Shown piece after piece: positions 15,610-50,600 of a DNA stretch of 64,000 bases (its first letter is position 1; every line of letters begins with the position of its first letter). A model generated the notes under the pieces. That model worked only from the letters and a program-made list of their open reading frames with translations. It did no database searches and was not told the DNA's origin. Source of the stretch: Morinoia aosen (taxonomy: Eukaryota; Arthropoda; Malacostraca; Amphipoda; Talitridae); contig CM059564.1 of assembly GCA_030386875.1 (NCBI GenBank), positions 46,520,075 to 46,584,074 on the forward strand, given 5' to 3'. The position numbers and the translations under genes were made by a program.

Positions 15610-17140
15610 TCAAAATTTCAGTCGAATTACCACAAAAAGCCTCATTTCCCCACCAAAATTTCAGTCGAAGTAACACAAAAGGCATCATTTCCCCACCAAA
15701 ATTTCAATTAAAGTAACACAAAAGGCATCATTTCCCCACCAAAATTTCAATTGAATTAACACAAAAGGCATCATTTCCCCACCAAAATTTCAATTAAAGT
15801 AACACAAAAGGCATCATTTCCCCACCAAAATTTCAATTAAAGTAACACAAAAGGCATCATTTCCCCACCAAAATTTCAGTCGAAGTAACACAAAAGGCAT
15901 CATTTCCCCCCCAAAATTTCAATTTAAGTAACACAAAAGGCATCATTTCCCCACCAAAATTTCAGTCGAAGTAACACAAAAGGCATCATTTCCCCACCAA
16001 AATTTCAGTCGAAGTAACACAAAAGGCATCATTTCCCCACCAAAATTTCAATTGAAGTAACACAAAAGGCATCATTTCCCCACCAAAATTTCAGTCGGAG
16101 TAACACAAAAGGCATCATTTCCCCACCAAAATTTCAATTGAAGTAACACAAAAGGCATCATTTCCCCACCAAAATTTCAATTGAAGTAACACAAAAGGCA
16201 TCATTTCCCTACCAAAATTTTAGTCGAAGTAACACAAAAGGCATCATTTCCCCACCAAAATTTCAATTGAAGTAACACAAAAGGCATCATTTCCCCACCA
16301 AAATTTCAATTGAAGTAACACAAAAGGCATCATTTCCCCACCAAAATTTCAGTCGGAGTAACACAAAAGGCATCATTTCCCCACCAAAATTTCAATTGAA
16401 GTAACACAAAAGGCATCATTTCCCCACCAAAATTTCAATTGAAGTAACACAAAAGGCATCATTTCCCCACCAAAATTTCAATTGAAGTAACACAAAAGGC
16501 ATCATTTCCCCACCAAAATTTCAATTGAAGTAACACAAAAGGCATCATTTCCCCACCAAAATTTCAATTGAAGTAACACAAAAGGCATCATTTCCCCACC
16601 AAAATTTCAATTGAAGTAACACAAAAGGCATCATTTCCCCACCAAAATTTCAATTGAAGTAACACAAAAGGCATCATTTCCCCACCAAAATTTCAATTGA
16701 AGTAACACAAAAGGCATCATTTCCCCACCAAAATTTCAGTCGGAGTAACACAAAAGGCATCATTTCCCCACCAAAATTTCAATTGAAGTAACACAAAAGG
16801 CATCATTTCCCCACCAAAATTTCAGTCGGAGTAACACAAAAGGCATCATTTCCCCACCAAAATTTCAATTGAAGTAACACAAAAGGCATCATTTCCCCAC
16901 CAAAATTTCAGTCGAAGTAACACAAAATGCATCATTTCCCTACCAAAATTTCAGTCGAAGTAACACAAAAGGCATCATTTCCCCACCAAAATTTCAATTG
17001 AAGTAACACAAAAGGCATCATTTCCCCACCAAAATTTCAATTGAAGTAACACAAAATGCATCATTTCCCCACCAAAATTTCAATTGAAGTAACACAAAAG
17101 GCATCATTTCCCCACCAAAATTTCAGTCGGAGTAACACCA
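15610..17140. repeat. 43-bp tandem array, about 36 copies
   Basis: The unit runs CCAAAATTTCAATTGAAGTA then ACACAAAAGGCATCATTTCC then CCA. The main variable block, after TTTCA, is ATTGAAG, GTCGAAG, GTCGGAG, ATTAAAG or ATTTAAG. ATTGAAG dominates the middle and right, and the other versions are mixed in without a clear order. The first copy is the most diverged, and the array ends at about 17140 after an AACACCACCTCC variant. Confidence 0.95.
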
Positions 17141-24152: not shown

Positions 24153-24349
24153 AAAGGAAGAAAAGGAACCAGTTATTAAATTCACTAAAATAACACGGGA
24201 TGAAATACGCGGAAAAACATCGGTTTACGTTTCCGAATGGTTTCATTTCAAATTTTTTGACTGAAATTAAAAAACATGGTAGGGCATAATAATTGAAAAC
24301 TGTTCGTCAAGTAACACTGTTCTGGACGATGAGTATCTGTTGAAAATTG
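24153..24349. other. Short unique spacer between two 60-bp arrays
   Basis: Nothing recognised. Confidence 0.5.
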
Positions 24350-27300
24350 ACTGGTAATGCGTTGCACTATAATGGCAGGATGGGAGGTAAACAGCATGAA
24401 CCAAAATTGTCTGGTAATGCGTTGCACTATAATGGCCGGATGGGAGGTAAACAGCATGAACCAAAATTGTCTGGTAATGCGTTGCACTATAATGGCAGGA
24501 TGGGAGGTAAACAGCATGAACCAAAATTGTCTGGTAATGCGTTGCACTATAATGGCCGGATGGGAGGTAAACAGCATGAACCAAAATTGTCTGGTAATGC
24601 GTTGCACTATAATGGCAGGATGGGAGGTAAACAGCATGAACCAAAATTGACTGGTAATGCGTTGCACTATAATGGCCGGATGGGAGGTAAACAGCATGAA
24701 CCATAATTGACTGGTAATGCGTTGCACTATAATGGCCGGATGGGAGGTAAACAGCATGAACCAAAATTGTCTGGTAATGCGTTGCACTATAATGGCCGGA
24801 TGGGAGGTAAACAGCATGAACCAAAATTGTCTGGTAATGCGTTTCACTATAATGGCCGGATGGGAGGTAAACAGCATGAACCAAAATTGACTGGTAATGC
24901 GTTGCACTATAATGGCCGGATGGGAGGTAAACAGCATGAACCAAAATTGTCTGGTAATGCGTTGCACTATAATGGCCGGATGGGAGGTAAACAGCATGAA
25001 CCAAAATTGACTGGTAATGCGTTGCACTATAATGGCCGGATGGGAGGTAAACAGCATGAACCATAATTGACTGGTTATGCGTTGCACTATAATGGCCGGA
25101 TGGGAGGTAAACAGCATGAACCAAAATTGACTGGTTATGCGTTGCACTATAATGGCCGGATGGGAGGTAAACAGCATGAACCAAAATTGACTGGTAATGC
25201 GTTGCACTATAATGGCCGGATGGGAGGTAAACAGCATGAACCAAAATTGTCTGGTAATGCGTTGCACTATAATGGCCGGATGGGAGGTAAACAGCATGAA
25301 CCATAATTGACTGGTTATGCGTTGCACTATAATGGCCGGATGGGAGGTAAACAGCATGAACCAAAATTGACTGGTAATGCGTTGCACTATAATGGCCGGA
25401 TGGGAGGTAAACAGCATGAACCAAAATTGACTGGTTATGCGTTGCACTATAATGGCCGGATGGGAGGTAAACAGCATGAACCAAAATTGTCTGGTAATGC
25501 GTTGCACTATAATGGCAGGATGGGAGGTAAACAGCATGAACCAAAATTGACTGGTAATGCGTTGCACTATAATGGCCGGATGGGAGGTAAACAGCATGAA
25601 CCATAATTGACTGGTTATGCGTTGCACTATAATGGCCGGATGGGAGGTAAACAGCATGAACCAAAATTGACTGGTTATGCGTTGCACTATAATGGCCGGA
25701 TGGGAGGTAAACAGCATGAACCAAAATTGACTGGTAATGCGTTGCACTATAATGGCCGGATGGGAGGTAAACAGCATGAACCAAAATTGTCTGGTAATGC
25801 GTTGCACTATAATGGCCGGATGGGAGGTAAACAGCATGAACCATAATTGACTGGTTATGCGTTGCACTATAATGGCCGGATGGGAGGTAAACAGCATGAA
25901 CCAAAATTGACTGGTAATGCGTTGCACTATAATGGCCGGATGGGAGGTAAACAGCATGAACCAAAATTGACTGGTTATGCGTTGCACTATAATGGCCGGA
26001 TGGGAGGTAAACAGCATGAACCAAAATTGTCTGGTAATGCGTTGCACTATAATGGCAGGATGGGAGGTAAACAGCATGAACCAAAATTGACTGGTAATGC
26101 GTTGCACTATAATGGCCGGATGGGAGGTAAACAGCATGAACCAAAATTGTCTGGTAATGCGTTGCACTATAATGGCAGGATGGGAGGTAAACAGCATGAA
26201 CCATAATTGACTGGTTATGCGTTGCACTATAATGGCCGGATGGGAGGTAAACAGCATGAACCAAAATTGACTGGTTATGCGTTGCACTATAATGGCCGGA
26301 TGGGAGGTAAACAGCATGAACCAAAATTGACTGGTTATGCGTTGCACTATAATGGCCGGATGGGAGGTAAACAGCATGAACCAAAATTGACTGGTTATGC
26401 GTTGCACTATAATGGCCGGATGGGAGGTAAACAGCATGAACCATAATTGACTGGTAATGCGTTGCACTATAATGGCCGGATGGGAGGTAAACAGCATGAA
26501 CCAAAATTGTCTGGTAATGCGTTGCACTATAATGGCCGGATGGGAGGTAAACAGCATGAACCAAAATTGTCTGGTAATGCGTTGCACTATAATGGCCGGA
26601 TGGGAGGTAAACAGCATGAACCATAATTGACTGGTTATGCGTTGCACTATAATGGCAGGATGGGAGGTAAACAGCATGAACCATAATTGTCTGGTAATGC
26701 GTTGCACTATAATGGCCGGATGGGAGGTAAACAGCATGAACCAAAATTGTCTGGTAATGCGTTGCACTATAATGGCCGGATGGGAGGTAAACAGCATGAA
26801 CCATAATTGACTGGTTATGCGTTGCACTATAATGGCCGGATGGGAGGTAAACAGCATGAACCAAAATTGACTGGTAATGCGTTGCACTATAATGGCCGGA
26901 TGGGAGGTAAACAGCATGAACCAAAATTGACTGGTAATGCGTTGCACTATAATGGCCGGATGGGAGGTAAACAGCATGAACCAAAATTGACTGGTAATGC
27001 GTTGCACTATAATGGCCGGATGGGAGGTAAACAGCATGAACCAAAATTGTCTGGTAATGCGTTGCACTATAATGGCAGGATGGGAGGTAAACAGCATGAA
27101 CCATAATTGACTGGTTATGCGTTGCACTATAATGGCAGGATGGGAGGTAAACAGCATGAACCAAAATTGACTGGTTATGCGTTGCACTATAATGGCCGGA
27201 TGGGAGGTAAACAGCATGAACCAAAATTGACTGGTAATGCGTTGCACTATAATGGCCGGATGGGAGGTAAACAGCATGAACCAAAATTGACTGGTAATGC

Positions 27301-28727
27301 GTTGCACTATAATGGCCGGATGGGAGGTAAACAGCATGAACCAAAATTGACTGGTTATGCGTTGCACTATAATGGCAGGATGGGAGGTAAACAGCATGAA
27401 CCAAAATTGTCTGGTAATGCGCTGCACTATAATGGCCGGATGGGAGGTAAACAGCATGAACCAAAATTGACTGGTTATGCGTTGCACTATAATGGCAGGA
27501 TGGGAGGTAAACAGCATGAACCAAAATTGTCTGGTAATGCGTTGCACTATAATGGCCGGATGGGAGGTAAACAGCATGAACCATAATTGACTGGTTATGC
27601 GTTGCACTATAATGGCAGGATGGGAGGTAAACAGCATGAACCATAATTGTCTGGTAATGCGTTGCACTATAATGGCCGGATGGGAGGTAAACAGCATGAA
27701 CCAAAATTGTCTGGTAATGCGTTGCACTATAATGGCCGGATGGGAGGTAAACAGCATGAACCATAATTGACTGGTTATGCGTTGCACTATAATGGCCGGA
27801 TGGGAGGTAAACAGCATGAACCAAAATTGACTGGTAATGCGTTGCACTATAATGGCCGGATGGGAGGTAAACAGCATGAACCAAAATTGACTGGTAATGC
27901 GTTGCACTATAATGGCCGGATGGGAGGTAAACAGCATGAACCAAAATTGACTGGTAATGCGTTGCACTATAATGGCCGGATGGGAGGTAAACAGCATGAA
28001 CCAAAATTGTCTGGTAATGCGTTGCACTATAATGGCAGGATGGGAGGTAAACAGCATGAACCATAATTGACTGGTTATGCGTTGCACTATAATGGCAGGA
28101 TGGGAGGTAAACAGCATGAACCAAAATTGACTGGTTATGCGTTGCACTATAATGGCCGGATGGGAGGTAAACAGCATGAACCAAAATTGACTGGTAATGC
28201 GTTGCACTATAATGGCCGGATGGGAGGTAAACAGCATGAACCAAAATTGACTGGTAATGCGTTGCACTATAATGGCCGGATGGGAGGTAAACAGCATGAA
28301 CCAAAATTGACTGGTTATGCGTTGCACTATAATGGCAGGATGGGAGGTAAACAGCATGAACCAAAATTGTCTGGTAATGCGTTGCACTATAATGGCCGGA
28401 TGGGAGGTAAACAGCATGAACCAAAATTGACTGGTTATGCGTTGCACTATAATGGCAGGATGGGAGGTAAACAGCATGAACCAAAATTGACTGGTAATGC
28501 GTTGCACTATAATGGCCGGATGGGAGGTAAACAGCATGAACCAAAATTGACTGGTAATGCGTTGCACTATAATGGCCGGATGGGAGGTAAACAGCATGAA
28601 CCAAAATTGACTGGTAATGCGTTGCACTATAATGGCCGGATGGGAGGTAAACAGCATGAACCAAAATTGACTGGTAATGCGTTGCACTATAATGGCCGGA
28701 TGGGAGGTAAACAGCATGAACCAAAAT
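24350..28727. repeat. Indel-free 60-bp tandem array, 73 copies
   Basis: GTTGCACTATAATGGC falls at exactly every 60th base from 24361 to 28681, so no unit has gained or lost a base. There are only a few variable sites: CAGGA/CCGGA, CCAAAATTG/CCATAATTG, TTGA/TTGT and GGTAATGC/GGTTATGC. The variant order shows block duplications: about 24980-25560 recurs as 25520-26100 (540 bp, 9 units), and about 26540-27480 recurs as 27500-28440 (960 bp, 16 units). Two minus frames stay open for about 1,500 codons (24248-28750 and 24267-28724). The translated 20-residue repeats resemble nothing I know, and I treat the frames as repeat artefacts. Confidence 0.97.
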
Positions 28728-29530
28728 AAATTAAACGTTCTTGTGAGCACGGTTCAATAAAAATATTGCAGGGGGAAGACACCAAAGTTGACATGCTATT
28801 AATCTGGAATGTTTTGCCGCAGGAACTCAAATAATTAAGACCTAAACAAGAAAAAGTGGTCGTCGTGTGGGCAGTTGTATGAATGTGTTGCCGCAACGGT
28901 AAACATAAACGTAAAGAAAACTGATCCTATCATTATCTTATATGTATCTCCAACGTAAAAAGAATTTTAGTTCAAATAGTTCAAAACAGGCATGTGATAT
29001 CTCTGCTTAAGAAGAGCAAAAATATCACAAAATATAGCATTCATCAAAGATTACTTGGAGCCGCTTGGGCACAGATCCAGCCGAGTCAGCTCAGGGTGAC
29101 ACGTAAAAAGGTTTGACAACTTCAGCCCTAATGCCCCAATCAATCTGGTTTTAAAGTGAACCATTGGAATAAAGAACGAATTATGTGAACTGAACTAAGT
29201 TCGAAAAGAGGCTTGAAATATTGCAATACCAACCATTAGAGTGCTCACATTTTGGGACATGGAGTTAAATAAAATATTTTTAGTGTCAGTTAATGGTGTA
29301 TTGTGATAGAGGTTCTTAACATTCATCTGCATTAATCCGAGTCGGAATACACTTCGGACACTCGTACGAATTTGGCATCGCAAAGTCATTTGTGGTGAAG
29401 TTACTGAGAATCGGTACGAGGTACCTTGTTATATGATGAGTTGTGCAGCTGTACTCAGCTCACCTTCAATGGGTTGAATGGGTGGAATTCTAGTAATGTG
29501 TCAAGAAGCAAGCGTTTAGTTTTTTTCGAA
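28728..29530. other. Unique sequence upstream of the Pitx homeobox exon, nothing recognised
   Basis: AT-rich and without recognisable genes. It is probably intronic to Pitx if the N-terminal exon lies further left, but no such exon was identified. Confidence 0.45.
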
Positions 29531-32300
<2,770 letters not shown>

Positions 32301-32517
32301 CTGTGGTTCTTAACCTAGAGGGCGCGAGCCTCCTCAGTAGAGCCTCATTTTTCCCAGTGGTGTTTACGACGACAGAGTGAACTTCCACGGTTGAATATGT
32401 TTGAGGACCTGTTTAAAATATTCTTTGTTGAGAGCTCTTACTTACCAGTCCACCTGCACACAATTTCCCCTGACAATTCTTGAGGGGGCGTGGGAGTAAA
32501 AAGGCTGAGAACCACTG
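32301..32517. mobile_element. hAT-type MITE with 8-bp target-site duplication
   Basis: This 217-bp non-coding element is flanked by a perfect 8-bp direct repeat, CTTTAGTA, at 32293-32300 and 32518-32525. Its ends are imperfect inverted repeats: CTGTGGTTCTTAACCT at the left, while the right end reads AAGGCTGAGAACCACTG, whose complement is CAGTGGTTCTCAGCCTT. The 8-bp duplication and the CAGNGGTTCTNANCC-like terminus are characteristic of hAT elements. It sits in the Pitx intron and has no coding capacity. Confidence 0.9.
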
Positions 32518-32525
32518 CTTTAGTA

Positions 32526-33118
32526 GCTGCCTCAACGTATGTATAGATCTCAATTAAAAATAGCACCTTCATTTTATACGACGTGTGTGCATTAGTTCGA
32601 GGCTATAGGTTGAAAAATATTATTTAATGTAACGAATAATTTTAGCAATCCGTTTTTCAATTCGAAAGCAACTTATTTATTCCAAAACTCAAGGGTTACT
32701 TTTATGTTTGCAAGTCATGCTGGAAAAATGCAATATATTATCAAATGCGAAAAATAAATTTCGAGTTAAAACTCAGTGCATGGAAGAAATACGGCCTTTT
32801 ATTCCGCTATCAATGGCAGTCATAAATACACAAATCAAACGCTCTCATTGCAGATAAATATTACCAGATTCTGGAGTTTATTATTTTACAGCCCTGCCGA
32901 GATTTGCTGGCGGTATCATCAACGTACACCGAGTTTCGGTGTCAGACTACCGTCTCCATAAACTTATTTGCTCTCAAGTTCCGTGTACTGCGCACGTGAT
33001 CTCTATCCACGATGATAATTAGCTCTGCAATATTTGTTTGTTCACTCTTTAGAACATGAGCAGCTTTCGCTAATCCGTAAAGCGATTGTGGAAGGCAATG
33101 CTCAAGCAAAAGCTATAA
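32526..33118. other. Pitx intron: unique sequence between two MITEs
   Basis: AT-rich, nothing recognised. Confidence 0.5.
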
Positions 33119-33368
33119 GGCCGCTGTCACACGGAGACCAAATGGTAGCTTTTCGTAACAATGGTCAACACTCTATGGTGAGCAGTACCACTCGGTCTGT
33201 CCAGCGCTGCGAAACCATAAGATTAAAGCCTTAGTTTGGGACCAGCTTGGTCATACCATGATTTCAGAACCTGAAATCATGGTACGACTAAGCTGGTCCC
33301 AAACTGAGGTCACATAATTAGACGATTATGAAGAAACTTTACCGTTTAGTCTCCCTGTGACAGCGGCC
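33119..33368. mobile_element. 250-bp foldback MITE
   Basis: The left end GGCCGCTGTCACACGGAGAC matches the reverse complement of the right end, GGCCGCTGTCACAGGGAGAC, with one mismatch in 20. The centre is a second, tighter palindrome at about 33232-33306: GTTTGGGACCAGCTT through CATGATTTCAG, then AAC, then the complement. The flanks are TA-rich (ATAA left, TATG right) and no clear target duplication can be assigned, so the superfamily is open. It is non-coding and intronic. Confidence 0.8.
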
Positions 33369-35004
33369 TATGACTCATTTTTGTAAGTATCTCTAATGAC
33401 CCGTCAGCGTTTTTGTACCCCGTAGAAAAATAACTTCTTTAGCTATCACCTGTTTTCATAATGCAGCCAGTAACTGTAATTACCTGCAGCATTTTTGTTC
33501 CTAATGGGACAGTAACTTTTTTAGCTATCATCTCTTTGCATAATCTAGCTAGCAGCTGAAGTGCAGTGAAAACAGCAGAGTTTAAAAGCGGCGGACTGGT
33601 CCAACTTTGCCATCCCACAACCGAACAAGCGAGTAAGCTTCAATTCATTTTTCAGAAAGTTCCAAGCTTCATAGTTTCTGAAAGGCTTCTGATGATATGA
33701 ATTTTATTCACATATTCAACAACTTTTCTACAAATCCGAATGCATTATGGGCTAAATGACACGCAAAGGTATTATATTGAACTATATGCTGTATTTCAGC
33801 AACTCTTCGAAATCTGGGAGCATTACGTTGTGTTCATTAGTTTCCGTTAACGATATGCAGGAGGAAGAGATTGGATTATGGTAAATAAATCTTCCCTCTA
33901 CTGCTGTCAGATGTGTTTTGTGTCTCAATGCTATCGATTATGAAGCTGAAGAGGTAGAAAATATATTTAAAAAGTTCTATATCACTAAACCGATGTGCTC
34001 GGTTAGACATTACTTTCTTTCTCTTTGTAAAATGTTTGTTATTATGACCTTGGCAGATTAATTATTTAATAATGTGATTTATTATTCAAACTTGGAGCAA
34101 GTGTACACACTCTTAAAAAATTTCGAGAAAACTGTTTTGACTCATGAACGAATCTTGCTTATGTCCTCTCAGTATCAGGAACCATCAATAGCATGGACGT
34201 GCCTATAGAAATAGGTGACTGGAAACCTAGTCTTGAATAAATCCCGCTATTAATGTAACAAATAAGCAGCATAAGTTTTCATTGAATTTTTCTCGAATTG
34301 AATGGAAAATTGGGGAAAAGTGTTTACGAAAGTTGACCTGATAGCATCGCTCGAGCCGTGTTATCAGAGGCGCTATCAGGCAGGTGCTATCTGCCCGGTA
34401 GTGACACCTTGGATCATCGGCGTCGCCTTATCTCGTCTGAGTTTGTACGCGCGTGATGATACCTGCATGTTGTGTGACTCACTTACCACAGCGATGATAG
34501 CTCACCAACACTGCAATACTTGCACTGAAAATTCCCACGAGCAGGGGATATGATCGTTTAGGTGATGTGGAATTTGAAAAGAATGCGCTAGGTGTAGGTG
34601 AAAAAGTTTACTTTTGACGGTAAAAATGCAGGGGCCCTTGTAATTTGACTTGAGAAACGCGATGTCAAATCCGCCTATTTCGACGGGTATGAAAAGGAAA
34701 AAAAAGAACATCGATGGTTGAGGTCAAAATGGTCCTCAACCATTGATAAATGAATGAGTAACGCACAGCATTCCTAGCACTGAGAAACATTCGAGGTCGA
34801 AATGATCAACATGAGGAAAGAGTAATGCCTTAATTGTGAGTCAGACCAAAACGTAGATGGACTAATTCGTCCACACGACGAAAAAGTAGAAGTTAAGCAC
34901 GTTAGCTGAAATAAAAATGGTTAAGCAGCAGAAATTGCCAACAAAGACAAGAATGAAGATCTTGTTTTTTTCTACTCGTGATGTTGGTGATGAGAGCCTT
35001 CTCT
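33369..35004. other. Pitx intron: unique sequence up to the CRE array
   Basis: No gene, RNA or element recognised. The ORFs at 34302-34553 and 34502-34711 are small and featureless. Confidence 0.5.
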
Positions 35005-38000
35005 CGCGCTGTAGTGACGTCATACTGGTGTTGTGACGGTGTACTGGCCCCGCGCTGTAGTGACGTCATACTGGTGTTGTGACGGTGTACTGGCCCCGCG
35101 CTGTAGTGACGTCATACTGGTGTTGTGACGGTGTACTGGCCCCGCGCTGTAGTGACGTCATACTGGTGTTGTGACGGTGTACTGGCCCCGCGCTGTAGTG
35201 ACGTCATACTGGTGTTGTGACGGTGTACTGGCCCCGCGCTGTAGTGACGTCATACTGGTGTTGTGACGGTGTACTGGCCCCGCGCTGTACTGACGTCATA
35301 CTGGTGTTGTGACGGTGTACTGGCCCCGCGCTGTAGTGACGTCATACTGGTGTTGTGACGGTGTACTGGCCCCGCGCTGTAGTGACGTCATACTGGTGTT
35401 GTGACGGTGTACTGGCCCCGCGCTGTAGTGACGTCATACTGGTGTTGTGACGGTGTACTGGCCCCGCGCTGTACTGACGTCATACTGGTGTTGTGACGGT
35501 GTACTGGCCCCGCGCTGTAGTGACGTCATACTGGTGTTGTGACGGTGTACTGGCCCCGCGCTGTAGTGACGTCATACTGGTGTTGTGACGGTGTACTGGC
35601 CCCGCGCTGTAGTGACGTCATACTGGTGTTGTGACGGTGTACTGGCCCCGCGCTGTAGTGACGTCATACTGGTGTTGTGACGGTGTACTGGCCCCGCGCT
35701 GTACTGACGTCATACTGGTGTTGTGACGGTGTACTGGCCCCGCGCTGTAGTGACGTCATACTGGTGTTGTGACGGTGTACTGGCCCCGCGCTGTAGTGAC
35801 GTCATACTGGTGTTGTGACGGTGTACTGGCCCCGCGCTGTACTGACGTCATACTGGTGTTGTGACGGTGTACTGGCCCCGCGCTGTACTGACGTCATACT
35901 GGTGTTGTGACGGTGTACTGGCCCCGCGCTGTACTGACGTCATACTGGTGTTGTGACGGTGTACTGGCCCCGCGCTGTACTGACGTCATACTGGTGTTGT
36001 GACGGTGTACTGGCCCCGCGCTGTACTGACGTCATACTGGTGTTGTGACGGTGTACTGGCCCCGCGCTTTACTGACGTCATACTGGTGTTGTGACGGTGT
36101 ACTGGCCCCGCGCTGTACTGACGTCATACTGGTGTTGTGACGGTGTACTGGCCCCGCGCTGTACTGACGTCATACTGGTGTTGTGACGGTGTACTGGCCC
36201 CGCGCTGTAGTGACGTCATACTGGTGTTGTGACGGTGTACTGGCCCCGCGCTGTACTGACGTCATACTGGTGTTGTGACGGTGTACTGGCCCCGCGCTGT
36301 AGTGACGTCATACTGGTGTTGTGACGGTGTACTGGCCCCGCGCTGTAGTGACGTCATACTGGTGTTGTGACGGTGTACTGGCCCCGCGCTGTAGTGACGT
36401 CATACTGGTGTTGTGGCGGTGTACTGGCCCCGCGCTGTACTGACGTCATACTGGTGTTGTGACGGTGTACTGGCCCCGCGCTGTAGTGACGTCATACTGG
36501 TGTTGTGACGGTGTACTGGCCCCGCGCTGTAGTGACGTCATACTGGTGTTGTGACGGTGTACTGGCCCCGCGCTGTAGTGACGTCATACTGGTGTTGTGA
36601 CGGTGTACTGGCCCCGCGCTGTAGTGACGTCATACTGGTGTTGTGACGGTGTACTGGCCCCGCGCTGTAGTGACGTCATACTGGTGTTGTGACGGTGTAC
36701 TGGCCCCGCGCTGTACTGACGTCATACTGGTGTTGTGACGGTGTACTGGCCCCGCGCTGTACTGACGTCATACTGGTGTTGTGACGGTGTACTGGCCCCG
36801 CGCTGTACTGACGTCATACTGGTGTTGTGACGGTGTACTGGCCCCGCGCTGTAGTGACGTCATACTGGTGTTGTGACGGTGTACTGGCCCCGCGCTGTAG
36901 TGACGTCATACTGGTGTTGTGACGGTGTACTGGCCCCGCGCTGTACTGACGTCATACTGGTGTTGTGACGGTGTACTGGCCCCGCGCTGTAGTGACGTCA
37001 TACTGGTGTTGTGACGGTGTACTGGCCCCGCGCTGTAGTGACGTCATACTGGTGTTGTGACGGTGTACTGGCCCCGCGCTGTACTGACGTCATACTGGTG
37101 TTGTGACGGTGTACTGGCCCCGCGCTGTAGTGACGTCATACTGGTGTTGTGACGGTGTACTGGCCCCGCGCTGTAGTGACGTCATACTGGTGTTGTGACG
37201 GTGTACTGGCCCCGCGCTGTACTGACGTCATACTGGTGTTGTGACGGTGTACTGGCCCCGCGCTGTACTGACGTCATACTGGTGTTGTGACGGTGTACTG
37301 GCCCCGCGCTGTAGTGACGTCATACTGGTGTTGTGACGGTGTACTGGCCCCGCGCTGTACTGACGTCATACTGGTGTTGTGACGGTGTACTGGCCCCGCG
37401 CTGTAGTGACGTCATACTGGTGTTGTGACGGTGTACTGGCCCCGCGCTGTAGTGACGTCATACTGGTGTTGTGACGGTGTACTGGCCCCGCGCTGTAGTG
37501 ACGTCATACTGGTGTTGTGACGGTGTACTGGCCCCGCGCTGTACTGACGTCATACTGGTGTTGTGACGGTGTACTGGCCCCGCGCTATAGTGACGTCATA
37601 CTGGTGTTGTGACGGTGTACTGGCCCCGCGCTGTACTGACGTCATACTGGTGTTGTGACGGTGTACTGGCCCCGCGCTGTAGTGACGTCATACTGGTGTT
37701 GTGACGGTGTACTGGCCCCGCGCTGTAGTGACGTCATACTGGTGTTGTGACGGTGTACTGGCCCCGCGCTGTAGTGACGTCATACTGGTGTTGTGACGGT
37801 GTACTGGCCCCGCGCTGTACTGACGTCATACTGGTGTTGTGACGGTGTACTGGCCCCGCGCTGTACTGACGTCATACTGGTGTTGTGACGGTGTACTGGC
37901 CCCGCGCTGTACTGACGTCATACTGGTGTTGTGACGGTGTACTGGCCCCGCGCTGTACTGACGTCATACTGGTGTTGTGACGGTGTACTGGCCCCGCGCT

Positions 38001-40993
38001 GTACTGACGTCATACTGGTGTTGTGACGGTGTACTGGCCCCGCGCTGTACTGACGTCATACTGGTGTTGTGACGGTGTACTGGCCCCGCGCTGTACTGAC
38101 GTCATACTGGTGTTGTGACGGTGTACTGGCCCCGCGCTGTACTGACGTCATACTGGTGTTGTGACGGTGTACTGGCCCCGCGCTGTACTGACGTCATACT
38201 GGTGTTGTGACGGTGTACTGGCCCCGCGCTGTACTGACGTCATACTGGTGTTGTGACGGTGTACTGGCCCCGCGCTGTAGTGACGTCATACTGGTGTTGT
38301 GACGGTGTACTGGCCCCGCGCTGTAGTGACGTCATACTGGTGTTGTGACGGTGTACTGGCCCCGCGCTGTAGTGACGTCATACTGGTGTTGTGACGGTGT
38401 ACTGGCCCCGCGCTGTACTGACGTCATACTGGTGTTGTGACGGTGTACTGGCCCCGCGCTGTACTGACGTCATACTGGTGTTGTGACGGTGTACTGGCCC
38501 CGCGCTGTACTGACGTCATACTGGTGTTGTGACGGTGTACTGGCCCCGCGCTGTACTGACGTCATACTGGTGTTGTGACGGTGTACTGGCCCCGCGCTGT
38601 ACTGACGTCATACTGGTGTTGTGACGGTGTACTGGCCCCGCGCTGTACTGACGTCATACTGGTGTTGTGACGGTGTACTGGCCCCGCGCTGTAGTGACGT
38701 CATACTGGTGTTGTGACGGTGTACTGGCCCCGCGCTGTAGTGACGTCATACTGGTGTTGTGACGGTGTACTGGCCCCGCGCTGTACTGACGTCATACTGG
38801 TGTTGTGACGGTGTACTGGCCCCGCGCTGTAGTGACGTCATACTGGTGTTGTGACGGTGTACTGGCCCCGCGCTGTACTGACGTCATACTGGTGTTGTGG
38901 CGGTGTACTGGCCCCGCGCTGTACTGACGTCATACTGGTGTTGTGACGGTGTACTGGCCCCGCGCTGTACTGACGTCATACTGGTGTTGTGACGGTGTAC
39001 TGGCCCCGCGCTGTACTGACGTCATACTGGTGTTGTGACGGTGTACTGGCCCCGCGCTGTAGTGACGTCATACTGGTGTTGTGACGGTGTACTGGCCCCG
39101 CGCTGTACTGACGTCATACTGGTGTTGTGACGGTGTACTGGCCCCGCGCTGTAGTGACGTCATACTGGTGTTGTGACGGTGTACTGGCCCCGCGCTGTAC
39201 TGACGTCATACTGGTGTTGTGACGGTGTACTGGCCCCGCGCTGTAGTGACGTCATACTGGTGTTGTGACGGTGTACTGGCCCCGCGCTGTACTGACGTCA
39301 TACTGGTGTTGTGACGGTGTACTGGCCCCGCGCTGTACTGACGTCATACTGGTGTTGTGACGGTGTACTGGCCCCGCGCTTTACTGACGTCATACTGGTG
39401 TTGTGGCGGTGTACTGGCCCCGCGCTGTAGTGACGTCATATTGGTGTTGTGACGGTGTACTGGCCCCGCGCTGTACTGACGTCATACTGGTGTTGTGACG
39501 GTGTACTGGCCCCGCGCTGTACTGACGTCATACTGGTGTTGTGACGGTGTACTGGCCCCGCGCTTTACTGACGTCATACTGGTGTTGTGACGGTGTACTG
39601 GCCCCGCGCTGTAGTGACGTCATACTGGTGTTGTGACGGTGTACTGGCCCCGCGCTGTACTGACGTCATACTGGTGTTGTGACGGTGTACTGGCCCCGCG
39701 CTGTAGTGACGTCATACTGGTGTTGTGACGGTGTACTGGCCCCGCGCTGTACTGACGTCATACTGGTGTTGTGACGGTGTACTGGCCCCGCGCTGTAGTG
39801 ACGTCATACTGGTGTTGTGACGGTGTACTGGCCCCGCGCTGTACTGACGTCATACTGGTGTTGTGACGGTGTACTGGCCCCGCGCTGTACTGACGTCATA
39901 CTGGTGTTGTGACGGTGTACTGGCCCCGCGCTGTACTGACGTCATACTGGTGTTGTGGCGGTGTACTGGCCCCGCGCTGTAGTGACGTCATACTGGTGTT
40001 GTGACGGTGTACTGGCCCCGCGCTGTAGTGACGTCATACTGGTGTTGTGACGGTGTACTGGCCCCGCGCTGTACTGAAGTCATACTGGTGTTGTGACGGT
40101 GTACTGGCCCCGCGCTGTACTGAAGTCATACTGGTGTTGTGACGGTGTACTGGCCCCGCGCTGTAGTGACGTCATACTGGTGTTGTGACGGTGTACTGGC
40201 CCCGCGCTGTAGTGACGTCATACTGGTGTTGTGACGGTGTACTGGCCCCGCGCTGTAGTGACGTCATACTGGTGTTGTGACGGTGTACTGGCCCCGCGCT
40301 GTAGTGACGTCATACTGGTGTTGTGACGGTGTACTGGCCCCGCGCTGTACTGACGTCATACTGGTGTTGTGACGGTGTACTGGCCCCGCGCTGTAGTGAC
40401 GTCATACTGGTGTTGTGACGGTGTACTGGCCCCGCGCTGTACTGACGTCATACTGGTGTTGTGGCGGTGTACTGGCCCCGCGCTGTAGTGACGTCATACT
40501 GGTGTTGTGACGGTGTACTGGCCCCGCGCTGTAGTGACGTCATACTGGTGTTGTGGCGGTGTACTGGCCCCGCGCTGTACTGACGTCATACTGGTGTTGT
40601 GACGGTGTACTGGCCCCGCGCTGTACTGACGTCATACTGGTGTTGTGACGGTGTACTGGCCCCGCGCTGTAGTGACGTCATACTGGTGTTGTGACGGTGT
40701 ACTGGCCCCGCGCTGTACTGACGTCATACTGGTGTTGTGGCGGTGTACTGGCCCCGCGCTGTAGTGACGTCATACTGGTGTTGTGACGGTGTACTGGCCC
40801 CGCGCTGTACTGACGTCATACTGGTGTTGTGACGGTGTACTGGCCCCGCGCTGTAGTGACGTCATACTGGTGTTGTGACGGTGTACTGGCCCCGCGCTGT
40901 ACTGACGTCATACTGGTGTTGTGGCGGTGTACTGGCCCCGCGCTGTAGTGACGTCATACTGGTGTTGTGGCGGTGTACTGGCCCCGCGCTGTC
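35005..40993. repeat. Indel-free 46-bp tandem array, 130 copies, one CRE per unit
   Basis: The unit is TGTAGTGACGTCATACTGGT then GTTGTGACGGTGTACTGGCC then CCGCGC. The octamer starts at 35015 in the first unit and 40949 in the last. That is 5,934 bp, exactly 129 periods of 46, so there is no net indel in 130 units. Main variants are GTAGTGACG / GTACTGACG, TTACTG for GTACTG, and GTGACGG / GTGGCGG. TGACGTCA is the palindromic CRE bound by CREB/ATF bZIP proteins. I saw it broken (TGAAGTCA) only at 40075 and 40121. Each unit has four CpGs, or three where GTGGCGG shifts them. The array lies wholly within the Pitx intron between homeobox exons A and B. Confidence 0.97.
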
Positions 40994-41470
40994 TCATGCT
41001 TACGGACGTACTGTGACACTTACTGGAAATGCGCTGACACATACCACTCATAATACACTCACACTTGCTGACATTATACCGACAAATACTGATGGTGCAT
41101 TGACATTTACAAACCTTGTACTAACTCTTATAGACTTCACACTGGTACTTTCTGACATTAAATTGGCCTTTGCTGTCATTGTCTCTTACTGACATTGCAG
41201 TGAAATTTACTGATATTGCACTGACAGTCACTGACATTATGCTGACACTTACTGATACTTAATTACCTCTCCCAACGATACACTGACGCTTATGACATTT
41301 TATTGCCGCTTCCGATGTTACTTTGACACTTACTGATGTTGCACTAACACTTACTGATATTTCAGCAACACTTACTGACATTATACTGACATTTGCTGAC
41401 ACTATACTGACATTACACCAACACTTCACAGACATTTCACATTCGAGCAGAACCATGACACTGACGATCG
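40994..41470. repeat. Degenerate ACTGACA-type tandem repeat adjoining the CRE array
   Basis: Diverged copies of a short motif, about 12 or 24 bp, read ACTTACTGACATT, ATACTGACATT, TTACTGATGTTGCACT and so on, from the right edge of the 46-bp array to about 41410. The best copies (TACTGACATTATACTGAC near 41374) resemble TACTGACGTCATACTGG of the array. The 72-codon minus ORF at 41259-41477 reads this repeat. Confidence 0.8.
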
Positions 41471-41556
41471 ACTGCATCCATGACTGCCGGCTCTAGAAAT
41501 GTAAATTACAGTTTGCCGAGGCCTGCTGTCATGAGTCATTATTTCAATTTCCTTAA

Positions 41557-41729
41557 CCCTTTATCGGCCAACGTCCTTCATGATGGATAGTAAGAAGTCA
41601 CTCAAACTTTTCGCATGTTTTAAATGCTTTAATGAAAAGTTCACACTGCACTTGGCTTCATGAATGACAGTTCGAGCGAAATTGCCGTAATATTTCGTTC
41701 TAATGCAAAACAATTTCGCCGCTACTGGG
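41557..41729. mobile_element. TTAA-flanked MITE of about 173 bp (second type)
   Basis: TTAA flanks both sides (41553-41556 and 41730-41733). The ends are weak inverted repeats: CCCTTTATCGGCCAA at the left, and the complement of the right end reads CCCAGTAGCGGCGAA. TTAA duplication and CCC-starting ends are what piggyBac-type elements have. It is non-coding. The inverted repeats match at only about 10 of 15 positions, so the call is moderate. Confidence 0.5.
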
Positions 41730-42152
41730 TTAAAAATTAAAAGGGAGACTTTAGACTTCGAATGTCGGTTACACAACGAGTCGTTTATTGTCGGTCTCTT
41801 GCTGGTTGAATATATCATTAATTAAAACGCGAATAATCAACAATTATTTTTACGTAGGTATTTACACTTATGGTTTAAATTTGCACAATTATTTTACGAT
41901 ATTTTCAAAATTTCTAGTGATTTCTGTACTTTGACAAGAGTGTCGTTGCTAGACCTGTGACCTGTGCGATGCGTTACTAATGATTGTCATTTTTGCCAAG
42001 CTCTAAATTGCTCATCTTACTCGCGCAAAATACTTGGTTCCCATTGAAGGCACAAAGGAATTAGAAGAAGTTCATTCCATAGTCTCAGTTTTTTTTGTGT
42101 TGACTGCCTGCATTGTGAGTGCAACTAACGACGATTCTTTTCCTGCCCTCAG

Positions 42153-42219
42153 ATACCCCGACTTGAGCGCCAGAGAAGAAATTTCGCTGTGGCTCAGCCT
42201 CAAGGAGGCCCAAGTCAGG
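42153..42219 (+). CDS. Pitx: Pitx homeobox exon B: homeodomain residues 25-46
   Basis: A 67-bp exon between acceptor TCCTGCCCTCAG (ends 42152) and donor GTGAGT (42220). The first base completes the split Arg codon; then 22 codons encode YPDLSAREEISL then WLSLKEAQVR, the end of helix 1, helix 2 and the start of helix 3. It exits in phase 0. The exon is the expected size and phase for a paired-like homeobox. Compared with the Pitx consensus I remember (YPDMSTREEIAVW then TNLTEARVR), about 8 of 22 residues differ, many more than in the flanking homeodomain parts. The reading frame is intact. Confidence 0.93.
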
Positions 42220-44304
42220 GTGAGTCCGTCGCATAAATAATAACTCATTCACTTCTCAAGGGTTTCCATTACAAACAATCATCTCTATCGAGCAGTTTCC
42301 CAGCCTAACTATTTCGCCACCCAAGCGATTTAATCACTTGGGCAGCGAAAAACATGCATACAGGCGGCGAAAAAGTTAGACTGGGTTGTGATGGGACTTG
42401 ACTCTTAATTTGACCTTCTTTTGGGGAGTTTAAATGAATGAAATTGATAAGTTCCGCTAAATCTGTACACCAACACAGATGACCTTCAGCCCGAGTGTGT
42501 AGGGGTGCGCTACTGAGATCAGCGGAAATATTCATAATGTTAAGGGAAGTTCAGCAAACAAATGCTTACGCATACGTGCGCAGTCCTGCAGTCGATATGT
42601 CGTAGTGTAAATCCAGTTTTTATTTTTATTTGAAGCAATAGATGGGCTCAAATTTTGCAGTATCTTATTATTGTGTGATGTTCTGTAAATAAGAAAAGGA
42701 TCTTGCACTTGAAGTTTACAATCGTATTACTGAAGTAAACGTTTTCTAAGTATACATAAAGAGGCTCGATCAGCCTCTCTTCATGGGAAGTAAACGTTCC
42801 CATCGCAGGTGCATCAGAAAAAATGAAAAGGCTGATACATTTTCAGCGATGAACTGACCACACGCCGGGAATTTAAAGTACAGCAACATATTGCGAGAAA
42901 AAGTCCCCGACTATGAAAATAACATTCCTTGGATTAAGCTTGGAGTCTGAGCGAATAATGGCATAACTGTACATCGCACATCAAAACAATTAGAGTTCAG
43001 AAAAAGTAGACAATTGAACGAATGGTAAAACTTAGAGCAATAGCTAGAGTTTATCGATTTAAATTTGGAGTACCTCAAGGTCTACTAAACTGATACAAAA
43101 TTAGGTGACATGTGTCACAAACATTGATAAATCCGAGGCAGGGAAAATCGTAGCACGCCTCTGCGCGGGAGTTGCGTTTCTTGCTTGTTTACGAACGGTA
43201 AGCCCAGGGTCTTAGCTTGTACCCAAGCCTTAGATGATATCTTACGCTGAAGGTAGATGTTGCTATTTTCATGCGTCGTGTATGCGTGCAGGTAGCTGAT
43301 GTATCTCTCTCTTCAGATTGCTTGTGAGGGGTTATGTTGAATTTTATCTTCTCTTCCAAAGACAGAAAGGGATCCGTTTGCTGGTTGTAAGAATTTGAGG
43401 TATGGTTTGGTATATTTATGAAACGTGGGATTGATCCCTCACTACAGCCTTGCGTCGTGCTGCGGCGACATGTCAACAAGGGCCATGGATCTGTATCCAA
43501 ACTAAATCAGGCATCTATGCATATTTTGATAGCCAAGCTGAAGCTCCCTCACGTCACCGCCTACCAGCAAAAATTTATTTTACGGCTGCATTTAGTGGTG
43601 TCTACTGCGGGCCTGATCATTGTTTGTTTCTAATGTACGGTGATTGCCGTCATTTTTTTAAATGAGATACTAATTTCACTAAGATACAAATTTCACTAAT
43701 TTCACTAAGATACAAAATCTTAAATATTCAACACAAGCTTGTCACTCCTCATGATTTATTAAATTTCCAACACATTTAAGCCGTCATCATAAATATGAAC
43801 TCAAACACTCAGTTCTTAGTTAAGACTTTCAATGGTAACTCGAATTTTGAATGCACATTTACCCCACCTAACAACTTACAACCTAATGAAAAGTTCTCCC
43901 CTAACTCGAAGTTTGAGTCGTAGCACGCATACGCTAACTTCAACTTCAAGAAGACCAAGCGAATTGTTCCTGAGTTCTGCGGCGCTGAATATGTTCACAG
44001 ACACGATGCTCGTATAAATGTTGGCAATCAATTCTAACTACACACACTCATGGCGACCAAAGCTAAATCTTAAAAGTGCCGTGTGATATACTCTGTCTAT
44101 GTAGTTCAAATGAGATACTATTTTATTCAATAACGACCTACCTATGCTATGATGGTTTGTGACATTTCTTAATTAGATGCAAGAAGCTGCTTGTTTTCAT
44201 TAGAAAATTATCAGACGCCTTCATTATAAATAGTGCCGGAAGGATGAAACATCCCGTCTGCATTTTGAGCAATATTTTATGAGTGTATTTTCCCTGTGCC
44301 GCAG
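42220..44304. other. Pitx intron between homeobox exons B and C
   Basis: About 2.1 kb without a recognised gene or array. The segment at about 43845-43955 is a diverged relative of 45965-46070 (shared AAGTTCTCC, CTCGAAGTTTG and TACGCTAA). Two minus-strand ORFs (42305-42535, 43189-43500) are unrecognised. Confidence 0.55.
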
Positions 44305-44892
44305 ATATGGTTCAAGAACCGGCGAGCGAAGTGGCGCAAGAGAGAGCGCCACGTGCTGACGTCAGGCATGCCAGGCGACCTGAAGGGCGGCTGGGGCGCT
44401 CAGCTCAACGGCTTCTCGTGGGACGACGGCCTCTACTCCGGCTACTCCACCTACAACAACTGGGCGAAAGTGACGCCCCCAGCCATCGCCGCCAAGAACT
44501 TGCCATGGGGCTTCAACAGCGTCAATATGAACCCGTTAATCACGCAACAACACACGGCCATGGCGCCCATCAATTGTTTCCAGACGGCTGGTCAGACGGC
44601 CTCTACAGGCATCATGCCTACCTCGATGTCGTCGTCCCTGGGTAGCTGCGGTACCCCGTGCCCGTACCCCGCCCCCACCTCCCCGTACATGTACCGGGAC
44701 CAGCCTGGTGCAATGTCTTCCTCCATCGCCTCCCTCCGTCTGCGCGCCAAGTCCCACTCCCCCGCTTTCACCTACTCCACCGCAGGGCCAGAATCTCGCT
44801 CTTCTTCCACCGTAGACAATACGAGCTCCTTCTTCCCGGCTTCCACTCCTTCGTCCGATAAATTTTCATGTATGAACAGCGTAATAGCGTAA
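44305..44892 (+). CDS. Pitx: Pitx homeobox exon C: helix 3, C-terminal region, OAR motif, stop
   Basis: The acceptor TGTGCCGCAG ends at 44304 and the exon enters in phase 0. It encodes 195 residues ending at TAA 44890-44892. Residues 1-14 (IWFKNRRAKWRKRE) finish the homeodomain; Lys at homeodomain position 50 sets bicoid-class TAATCC preference. Then come GAQLNGFSW, the conserved SGYSTYNNWA, a Pro/Thr/Ser-rich region, CPYPAPTSPYMYRD, and the OAR motif SSSIASLRLRAKSH at about residues 138-151, which in this family mediates autoregulation and partner contacts. The tail after OAR is about 44 residues and Ser-rich, longer than I expect for Pitx. ORFs in other frames (44283-44645, 44658-44861, minus 44536-44757) are shadows. 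Confidence 0.96.
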   Translation: MWFKNRRAKWRKRERHVLTSGMPGDLKGGWGAQLNGFSWDDGLYSGYSTYNNWAKVTPPAIAAKNLPWGFNSVNMNPLITQQHTAMAPINCFQTAGQTASTGIMPTSMSSSLGSCGTPCPYPAPTSPYMYRDQPGAMSSSIASLRLRAKSHSPAFTYSTAGPESRSSSTVDNTSSFFPASTPSSDKFSCMNSVIA

Positions 44893-46976: not shown

Positions 46977-49155
46977 ACAGCCTTTTGAAGGGTTATACAC
47001 AGCAACGTCAATAGATACGCTGCATGCAGTTATGCGTGGGAGAGTTTTTTGCAGTCTTTTGAAGGGTTATACACAGCAACGTCAATAGATACGCTGCAGT
47101 TATGCGTGGGAGAGTTCTTTGCAGCCTTTTGAAGGGTTATACACAGCAACGTCAATAGATACGCTGCAGTTATGCGTGGGAGAGTTCTTTGCAGCCTTTT
47201 GAAGGGTTATACACAGCAACGTCAATAGATACGCTGCAGTTATGCGTGGGAGAGTTCTTTGCAGTCTTTTGAAGGGTTATACACAGCAACGTCAATAGAT
47301 ACGCTGCAGTTATGCGTGGGAGAGTTCTTTGCAGCCTTTTGAAGGGTTATACACAGCAACGTCAATAGATACGCTGCAGTTATGCGTGGGAGAGTTCTTT
47401 GCAGCCTTTTGAAGAGTTATACACAGCAACGTCAATAGATACGCTGCAGTTATGCGTGGGAGAGTTCTTTGCAGCCTTTTGAAGGGTTATACACAGCAAC
47501 GTCAATAGATACGCTGCAGTTATGCGTGGGAGAGTTCTTTGCAGCCTTTTGAAGGGTTATACACAGCAACGTCAATAGATACGCTGCAGTTATGCGTGGG
47601 AGAGTTCTTTGCAGCCTCTTGAAGGGTTATACACAGCAACGTCAATAGATACGCTGCAGTTATGCGTGGGAGAGTTCTTTGCAGCCTTTTGAACAGTTAT
47701 ACACAGCAACGTCAATAGATACGCTGCAGTTATGCGTGGGAGAGTTCTTTGCAGCCTTTTGAAGGGTTATACACAGCAACGTCAATAGATACGCTGCAGT
47801 TATGCGTGGGAGAGTTCTTTGCAGCCTTTTGAAGGGTTATACACAGCAACGTCAATAGATACGCTGCAGTTATGCGTGGGAGAGTTCTTTGCAGTCTTTT
47901 GAAGGGTTATACACAGCAACGTCAATAGATACGCTGCAGTTATGCGTGGGAGAGTTCTTTGCAGCCTTTTGAAGGGTTATACACAGCAACGTCAATAGAT
48001 ACGCTGCAGTTATGCGTGGGAGAGTTCTTTGCAGTCTTTTGAAGGGTTATACACAGCAACGTCAATAGATACGCTGCAGTTATGCGTGGGAGAGTTCTTT
48101 GCAGCCTTTTGAAGGGTTATACACAGCAACGTCAATAGATACGCTGCAGTTATGCGTGGGAGAGTTCTTTGCAGCCTTTTGAAGGGTTATACACAGCAAC
48201 GTCAATAGATACGCTGCAGTTATGCGTGGGAGAGTTCTTTGCAGTCTTTTGAAGGGTTATACACAGCAACGTCAATAGATACGCTGCAGTTATGCGTGGG
48301 AGAGTTCTTTGCAGCCTTTTGAAGGGTTATACACAGCAACGTCAATAGATACGCTGCAGTTATGCGTGGGAGAGTTCTTTGCAGCCTTTTGAAGGGTTAT
48401 ACACAGCAACGTCAATAGATACGCTGCAGTTATGCGTGGGAGAGTTCTTTGCAGCCTTTTGAAGGGTTATACACAGCAACGTCAATAGATACGCTGCAGT
48501 TATGCGTGGGAGAGTTCTTTGCAGCCTTTTGAAGGGTTATACACAGCAACGTCAATAGATACGCTGCAGTTATGCGTGGGAGAGTTCTTTGCAGCCTTTT
48601 GAAGGGTTATACACAGCAACGTCAATAGATACGCTGCAGTTATGCGTGGGAGAGTTCTTTGCAGCCTTTTGAAGGGTTATACACAGCAACGTCAATAGAT
48701 ACGCTGCAGTTATGCGTGGGAGAGTTCTTTGCAGTCTTTTGAAGGGTTATACACAGCAACGTCAATAGATACGCTGCAGTTATGCGTGGGAGAGTTCTTT
48801 GCAGCCTTTTGAAGGGTTATACACAGCAACGTCAATAGATACGCTGCAGTTATGCGTGGGAGAGTTCTTTGCAGCCTTTTGAAGGGTTATACACAGCAAC
48901 GTCAATAGATACGCTGCAGTTATGCGTGGGAGAGTTCTTTGCAGTCTTTTGAAGGGTTATACACAGCAACGTCAATAGATACGCTGCAGTTATGCGTGGG
49001 AGAGTTCTTTGCAGCCTTTTGAAGGGTTATACACAGCAACGTCAATAGATACGCTGCAGTTATGCGTGGGAGAGTTCTTTGCAGCCTTTTGAAGGGTTAT
49101 ACACAGCAACGTCAATAGATACGCTGCAGTTATGCGTGGGAGAGTTCTTTGCAGA
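46977..49155. repeat. 70-bp tandem array, 31 copies
   Basis: The unit is GCAGCCTTTTGAAGGGTTAT then ACACAGCAACGTCAATAGAT then ACGCTGCAGTTATGCGTGGG then AGAGTTCTTT. The first copy is 74 bp because of a CATG insertion in GCTGCATGCAG. From 47051 to 49151 the period is exactly 70 bp. The commonest variant is GCAGTCTTTT for GCAGCCTTTT; single exceptions are GAAGAG, GAACAG and CCTCTTG. It ends abruptly within GCAGATATTT. Confidence 0.96.
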
Positions 49156-49987: not shown

Positions 49988-50600
49988 TGGATAGGGACAC
50001 ACTCCCCAACACTCCAGGCACCAGATAGGGACACACTCCCCAACACTCCAGGCACCAGATAGGGACACACTCCCCAACACTCCAGGCACCAGATAGGGAC
50101 ACACTCCCCAACACTCATGGCACCAGATAGGGACACACTCCCCAACACTCCAGGCACCAGATAGAGACACACTCCCCAACACTCCAGGCACCAGATAGGG
50201 ATACACTCCCCAACACTCCAGGCACCAGATAGGGACACACTCCCCAACACTCCAGGCACCAGATAGGGACATACTCCCCAACACTCCAGGCACCAGATAG
50301 GGACACACTCCCCAACACTCCAGGCACCAGATAGGGACACACTCCCCAACACTCCAGGCACCAGATAGAGACACACTCCCCAACACTCCAGGCACCAGAT
50401 AGGGACACACTCCCCAACACTCCAGGCACCAGATAGCGACACACTCCCCAACACTCCAGGCACCAGATAGGGATACACTCCCCAACATTCTAGGCACCAG
50501 ATAGGGACACACTCCCCAACACTCCAGGCATCAGATAGAGACACACTCCCCAACACTCTAGGCGCCAGATAGAGACACACTCCCCAACACTCAAGGCACC
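49988..50600. repeat. 34-bp minisatellite, about 18 copies
   Basis: The unit is AGATAGGGACACACTCCCCA then ACACTCCAGGCACC, repeated every 34 bp with single-base variants (AGAGAC, AGCGAC, ATACAC, CTCATGG, CATTCTAGG). Frames remain open on the minus strand (49733-50512 and 49825-50580), giving Cys/Leu-rich repetitive peptides. I regard these as artefacts because two frames are open at once and no non-repeat domain is attached. Confidence 0.94.

Follow-up and report, generated by a model that had tools for sequence, protein, structure and literature searches.

A 46-bp minisatellite carrying 128 CRE octamers in a probable Pitx intron of Morinoia aosen

The 46-bp tandem array in a probable Pitx intron of Morinoia aosen is best read, with a probability of roughly 0.87, as an ordinary young, locus-private minisatellite whose amplified unit held a CRE octamer (TGACGTCA) by chance, the sites not being under selection. 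The array sites may well bind CREB/ATF proteins in vitro, and an effect of the array on Pitx is not indicated.

Tandem Repeats Finder (TRF) describes the array, within the 64-kb window (the whole stretch of DNA analysed), as a repeat of period 46 with 130.2 copies, 98% matches and 0% indels at 35005-40992 (Table 1). In register, it comprises 130 full units (35005-40984) followed by 8 bases, and the spacing of the units shows zero slips along its whole length, in agreement with the exact 46-bp phase over 5.9 kb described by the first-pass annotation. The ~128 perfect octamers reported there are 128/130 by count, and the only broken ones (TGAAGTCA) start precisely where it had placed them, at 40075 and 40121; lying in neighbouring units, they probably represent a single mutation copied once. 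The window contains 130 copies of TGACGTCA, 128 within the array and two elsewhere (44357 and 52967), compared with a mean of 1.11 and a maximum of 4 in dinucleotide shuffles of the window (n=100). DNA makes one helical turn per 10.5 bp, at which each unit spans 4.38 turns, matching the earlier estimate of ~4.4 and placing consecutive CRE sites on different faces of the helix. The phasing gives no sign of cooperative binding, 46 bp not being a whole number of turns.

Table 1. Features of the array, its 3' flank and the probable Pitx gene (window positions)
Feature	Positions	Strand	Basis
Tandem array, 130 full 46-bp units CGCGCTGTA(C/G)TGACGTCATACTGGTGTTGTGACGGTGTACTGGCCC plus 8 bases	35005..40992	+	TRF, in-register units
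128 perfect TGACGTCA octamers, spaced 46 bp except across two broken units	35015..40956	.	motif count
Two adjacent units with octamer TGAAGTCA	40065..40156	+	unit alignment
21-bp repeat, decayed, bearing TACTGACATT-like motifs, 3' side of array; likely seed of unit	41021..41425	+	motif count, alignment
Probable Pitx exon, first part of homeodomain; start inferred from preceding AG	29848..29989	+	homology, domain scan, splicing
Probable Pitx intron, 12,163 bases, GT...AG, containing the array	29990..42152	+	splicing
Probable Pitx exon, middle of homeodomain	42153..42219	+	splicing
Probable Pitx exon, recognition helix, OAR motif, stop	44305..44892	+	splicing, domain scan

Splicing of 29848-29989, 42153-42219 and 44305-44892 yields a single open reading frame that encodes a Pitx-type homeodomain, carrying lysine at position 50, and an OAR motif (23.1 bits, cut-off 20.1), and the sequence of the host gene makes it a probable crustacean Pitx. 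The closest solved relatives of the first exon are Pitx2/3; the homeodomain portion in this exon alone, as distinct from the spliced domain, scores 21.8, slightly below the cut-off of 22.9. The in-frame splicing confirms the placement of the array in a Pitx intron (29990-42152) between homeobox exons, with the array taking up half of these 12.2 kb. Coding function was sought as stop-to-stop frames of at least 120 aa in the array, of which neither strand has any. RNA structure was rejected, three 3-unit pieces folding about as well as their shuffles (z of 0.90, -0.16 and -1.21, matched by 161, 86 and 24 of the 200 shuffles, respectively), as was a higher-order repeat, the longest recurring run of unit types being 10, where shuffles (n=300) give 8.9 on average and 20 at most.

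With 128 octamers in 5.9 kb, the array shows the many close copies of one motif that characterize a homotypic cluster. Better preservation of the motif than of its surrounding bases was not found in this array, where only 5 variable columns give low power and would leave weak selection on the octamer invisible. Changed cells amount to 2/1040 in the CRE and 14/4810 in the rest of the unit when the balanced column 9 is excluded (p=0.75), or 78/4940 outside the CRE when it is included, and variable columns to 1/8 and 4/38, respectively (p=1.0). Ranked by their number of perfect copies, 23 of the 46 octamers in the unit stand above the CRE, 2 level with it and 20 below. The special role suggested for the octamer, which was to be checked against the other 38 bases, is contradicted by this equality of substitution rates. 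The near-perfection of the octamer follows from that of the entire unit, which we attribute to homogenisation of copies outpacing mutation and not to selection for CREB/ATF sites.

A homotypic-cluster enhancer or conditionally silenced element, in which CREB/ATF or AP-1-like proteins on the 128 sites raise Pitx transcription or, via a repressor, lower it, is accordingly unlikely. Its precedent is a repressed intronic enhancer: according to PMC13373173, a tandem repeat located within FOCAD, in an intron ~100 kb from IFNB1, contains 45 PU.1 motifs and acts as an IFNB1 enhancer repressed by MORC3, and AP-1 clusters are present in other restricted repeats. The Pitx-intron array resembles this element in that both are intronic minisatellites with homotypically clustered motifs of a single factor; it also lies within an intron of a developmental regulator, and the CpG of its octamer is undecayed, remaining intact in 128/130 units. 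Against this, the unit's three other CpGs, all outside the octamer, are intact in 130/130 units, the 4.38-turn spacing is not face-aligned, and many other places in the genome also hold CRE triplets. For the IFNB1 element, experiments demonstrated binding, enhancer activity and repression, and Spi-motif tandem repeats reportedly occur there in other mammals too (PMC13373173), whereas the CRE of the Pitx-intron array is no better conserved than the remaining unit.

The homogeneity of the array falls within the range of its neighbours. Eight other arrays of at least 500 bases in the window, all without CRE and reaching up to 4.4 kb, differ by 0.9-7.5% per base, compared with 1.3% in this array, in a comparison that excluded the array at 4215-5346 and duplicate TRF rows and kept indels outside the model. 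Intermediate-frequency variants are mixed as at random in this array (63 runs, ~66 expected) and are also randomly interspersed in the five other arrays tested. In the other CRE array analysed (n=1, 31-bp unit), the octamer is intact in 27/36 copies, and 18 of the 31 octamers of the unit are intact in more copies than the CRE. Given how often the CRE occurs in the genome, the probability of a CRE octamer in at least one of the nine analysed units is 1.8%, which counts against a chance CRE, though the figure concerns one particular octamer and many other known sites would be equally eye-catching to a reader.

Exact single CRE octamers number 65,022 in the assembly, the most of the four octamers so counted (CRE, ACTGCAGT, TCAGCTGA and AGTCGACT). 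The genome contains 3080 CRE triplet starts, ~124 of them from this array by arithmetic, and the CRE ranks second among six palindromic octamers, under ACTGCAGT (5307) and over TCAGCTGA (1427), ATGCGCAT (771), TACGCGTA (259) and AGTCGACT (220). Per single octamer, triplets amount to 4.7% for the CRE (3080/65022), 10.0% for ACTGCAGT, 3.9% for TCAGCTGA and 1.8% for AGTCGACT. An expected rarity of the CRE in arrays relative to control octamers did not hold, four of the five controls being lower in triplet number; since the CRE is second in triplets and commonest singly, a general preference for it in this genome is possible. Among the matches listed (up to 35.9 Mb of contig 1), CRE triplets occur at 7 places, 5 of which are visible tandem repeats with differing units.

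These totals also bear on a titrating decoy, by which the 128 sites would soak up CREB/ATF genome-wide. The action of repeated sites as decoys is an established idea, and the sites here are perfect and densely packed, but they make up 0.2% of the exact octamers in the assembly, so that the array hardly alters total site number, and we give this explanation next to no credence.

That the CRE itself drives array growth is highly improbable. The proposal is that the minus-strand ATGACGT, identical to the fission yeast M26 heptamer, attracts breaks that promote unequal exchange; according to PMC9775316, this heptamer binds Atf1-Pcr1 to form the meiotic break hotspot M26, a mechanism that lends the proposal support. 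Its reverse complement, ACGTCAT, occupies columns 12-18 in 128/130 units, the core being common to the array and the M26/CRE-like hotspot (PMC9775316), and the CRE is rather common in the genome both singly and in triplets. However, adjoining CRE-free arrays are similar in size and homogeneity, ACTGCAGT exceeds the CRE in triplets by number and per octamer, and not all fission yeast CREs are hotspots according to PMC9775316, where M26 is a lone site acting via Atf1-Pcr1, in contrast to the many sites of this animal array. A related proposal, that ATF-family proteins open germ-line chromatin and promote breaks, with CRE minisatellites a by-product of factor-guided recombination in Morinoia aosen, is very doubtful too.

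For the locus-private minisatellite, the 3' flank suggests an origin. The decayed 21-bp repeat is the likely but unproven seed of the 46-bp unit, a suggestive link drawn from sequence resemblance: the CRE-bearing portion of the unit agrees with TACTGACATTATACTG at 41373 in 14/16 positions, and the seed alignment scores 22, a value above the 20 that real segments (n=82) did not exceed, but Markov sequences (n=300) attained 24 and shuffled units (n=300) 22. ACTGAC-like motifs number 15 in the flank, with 0.46 expected, for a motif set picked after viewing the flank, and rare unit variants are concentrated toward this side (p=0.0009). Amplification would have started from 46 bp that probably bordered the older decayed TACTGACATT-type repeat and proceeded head to tail, presumably by unequal exchange or slippage. 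This stretch would have carried by chance TGACGTCA, which differs from the TGACATTA of the flank by two substitutions, so that every copy inherited the octamer. A dispersed repeat or transposon origin was rejected, unit and flank each being found at this place only: all 56 genome matches of a 35-base unit pattern lie inside the array (56/56, exact matches only), and 40993-41460 has one genome occurrence in a search that passes over simple repeats and very common words.

The 46-bp unit lies within the roughly 10-100 bp of minisatellites (130 units, no indels), and exact matches of the unit pattern place it at a single locus. Of the enhancer, decoy and neutral satellite offered earlier, neutrality thus stands, the octamer being no better kept, and the satellite gives way to a single-locus minisatellite; satellite DNA, with many loci and megabases, was rejected on this exact-match genome search. 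The array shares with minisatellites/VNTRs its head-to-tail order, high identity, few variant columns shuffled among copies, single place and intronic position, but differs from them in its length (6 kb, 130 copies), freedom from indels and canonical transcription-factor site. No description of a CRE array in Pitx was found among literature titles and abstract openings. In a genome rich in homogenised minisatellites, more than 100 perfect factor sites can arise without selection, so that an enhancer should not be deduced from copy number and perfection alone. An action of the array on Pitx, should there be one, would make this a natural CREB/ATF array of very large size and a handy test case for copy-number effects.

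A single-locus homogenised tandem array, carrying the CREB/ATF-type CRE octamer TGACGTCA in perfect form in 128 of its 130 units, fills 5,988 of the 12,163 bases of an intron (29990-42152) of a probable Pitx gene. In two neighbouring units, at 40075 and 40121, the octamer is replaced by TGAAGTCA; the first-pass annotation had placed the array exactly and had named both broken octamers correctly. Shuffles of the window hold a mean of 1.11 TGACGTCA octamers, so the 128 sites are no chance build-up of independent sites; the 128 unit copies are the product of one amplification.

Features of the Pitx intron and neighbouring tandem arrays (window coordinates)
Feature	Coordinates	Remarks
Complete 46-bp units	35005-40984	n = 130, plus 8 bases to 40992, without indels
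ACTGAC-like motifs of 3′ flank	41021-41425	
Exon	29848-29989	splices into one frame with the other two
Exon	42153-42219	as above
Exon	44305-44892	as above
Variant-mixing test	15611-17138	
Variant-mixing test	24343-28727	
Variant-mixing test	35005-40992	CRE array
Variant-mixing test	46978-49154	
Variant-mixing test	49990-50600	
Variant-mixing test	61119-64000	

The three-exon frame encodes an OAR motif and a homeodomain whose residue 50 is lysine. The closest solved relatives of exon 29848-29989 are Pitx2 and Pitx3, and the homeodomain part in this exon alone scores 21.8 bits, slightly below the Pfam cut-off of 22.9. The 37 homeodomain residues encoded within 42153-44350 differ at nine positions from the form common to most animals. 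The three-exon protein has 44 matches in the assembly (1.99 Gb, 29 contigs; window at C9:46520075-46584074), the best outside the window being 59% identical over residues 29-87 only, and thus no second Pitx gene was seen in this search. One extra TGACGTCA lies at 44357-44364, within the coding sequence of the last-listed exon. Hemocyanin-family genes give 17 matches in two clusters; the gene compared scores 441 bits with 1hc1 (from a spiny lobster) and 440 with 6l8s, versus 212 with 3ixv and 190 with 1lla (from a horseshoe crab), a much closer fit to the first pair that suggests a crustacean.

The 130 units comprise nine types with five variable columns, one inside the octamer (2 copies) and four outside (4, 64, 1 and 9 copies). 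Changed cells number 2 of 1040 inside the octamer and 78 of 4940 outside. Excluding column 9, the balanced C/G column immediately before the octamer, leaves 14 of 4810 outside, so that the comparison of octamer with rest of unit proposed in the first-pass annotation yields similar change rates (p=0.75). The two changed octamers probably represent one event. Read as a circle, the unit contains 46 octamers; compared with TGACGTCA, 23 have a higher number of perfect copies, 2 the same number and 20 a lower one. Of the unit's four CpGs, three are retained in all 130 copies, and the CRE's own CpG, in 128, is the least well kept. The octamer is not special within the unit, with little power against weak selection because so few columns vary.

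Minisatellites are unusually abundant in the window, where tandem repeats of period ≥10 cover 46.7% of bases; ten 10-kb stretches of the same genome, chosen by the analyst at round coordinates, average 6.6% (range 0-19.7%). Ten loci of 3.2 kb, each around another homeobox match, include one (L032) that is 76.6% tandem repeat and five that have none. Eight further window arrays of ≥500 bases, with 34-125-bp units lacking the CRE, differ by 0.9-7.5% per base, compared with 1.3% in the CRE array; the splitter takes no account of indels, covered 29 of the 61 units in the 20262 array and 19 of the first array's 20, and therefore misstates some values, and the compound array 4215-5346 was left out. 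Intermediate-frequency variants show a random-looking distribution along the CRE array and the five others so tested, with no significant clustering of biallelic intermediate-frequency columns in any of the six; this suggests short-tract exchange or very thorough shuffling of copies rather than duplication in blocks. The CRE array is not special in behaviour among its neighbours, one turnover apparently acting on all of them. Two overlapping minus-strand frames (24248-28753), open from stop to stop over 1501 and 1487 codons, run through a 60-bp array because its unit length is divisible by three and the unit holds no stop.

The 1.99-Gb assembly contains 65,022 copies of TGACGTCA, ~2-fold the uniform expectation and above the single counts of three further octamers (53,031, 36,333 and 12,229). 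Its triplets (gaps of 8-38 bases) have 3080 starts, counted as starts and not as arrays, versus 220, 259, 771, 1427 and 5307 for five other palindromic octamers with the CRE's base composition. Triplet starts per single occurrence are 4.7% for the CRE and 10.0%, 3.9% and 1.8% for the three singly counted controls. The CRE is therefore upper-middle among control octamers, neither unique nor beyond their range; a moderate genomic preference for it in triplets is possible. Among the matches listed (to 35.9 Mb of contig 1), CRE triplets occupy at least seven separate places, five being visible tandem repeats with units of ~21, 26, 31, 32 and 39 bp and the remaining two short clusters; no tandem array across the CREs was found at L009, the one short cluster fetched. 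In the 31-bp array at C1:15.78 Mb, the CRE is intact in 27 of 36 copies, a number exceeded by 18 of the unit's 31 octamers, equalled by 7 and not reached by 5. Given its genome-wide rate, TGACGTCA would fall in one of the nine analysed window units with a probability of 1.8%, which we do not count as evidence of function, since any well-known site would have drawn remark.

The 3′ flank, a decayed ~21-bp repeat with 52.5% self-identity at lag 21 over 41061-41460, is the likely, if unproven, seed of the unit, judged by sequence resemblance. Its 468 bases contain 15 ACTGAC-like motifs versus 0.46 expected (maximum of 3 in 500 simulations), the motif set having been picked after the flank had been viewed. 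Flank TACTGACATTATACTG matches unit TACTGACGTCATACTG at 14 of 16 bases; the flank-unit local score is 22, above anything reached by 82 segments taken from other parts of the window (maximum 20), level with the top score among 300 shuffled units and below the maximum of 300 Markov sequences (24). The 5′ flank shows nothing comparable. Rare variants, column 9 excluded, are concentrated toward the array's 3′ end (p=0.0009), as expected if this edge is less homogenised. The old repeat would have decayed, one 46-bp stretch of it carrying a chance CRE would have been amplified, and inter-copy exchange would maintain the uniformity of the array.

Among the enhancer, decoy and neutral-satellite readings offered earlier, we infer that the array is neutral. 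It could in principle have a regulatory effect, by analogy with a FOCAD-intron tandem repeat bearing 45 PU.1 motifs, described in the MORC3 paper as a repressed enhancer of IFNB1, alongside AP-1 clusters in other repeats (PMC13373173). The array's sequence adds nothing to this precedent for a regulatory role; the PU.1 repeat gives the strongest reason to test the array.
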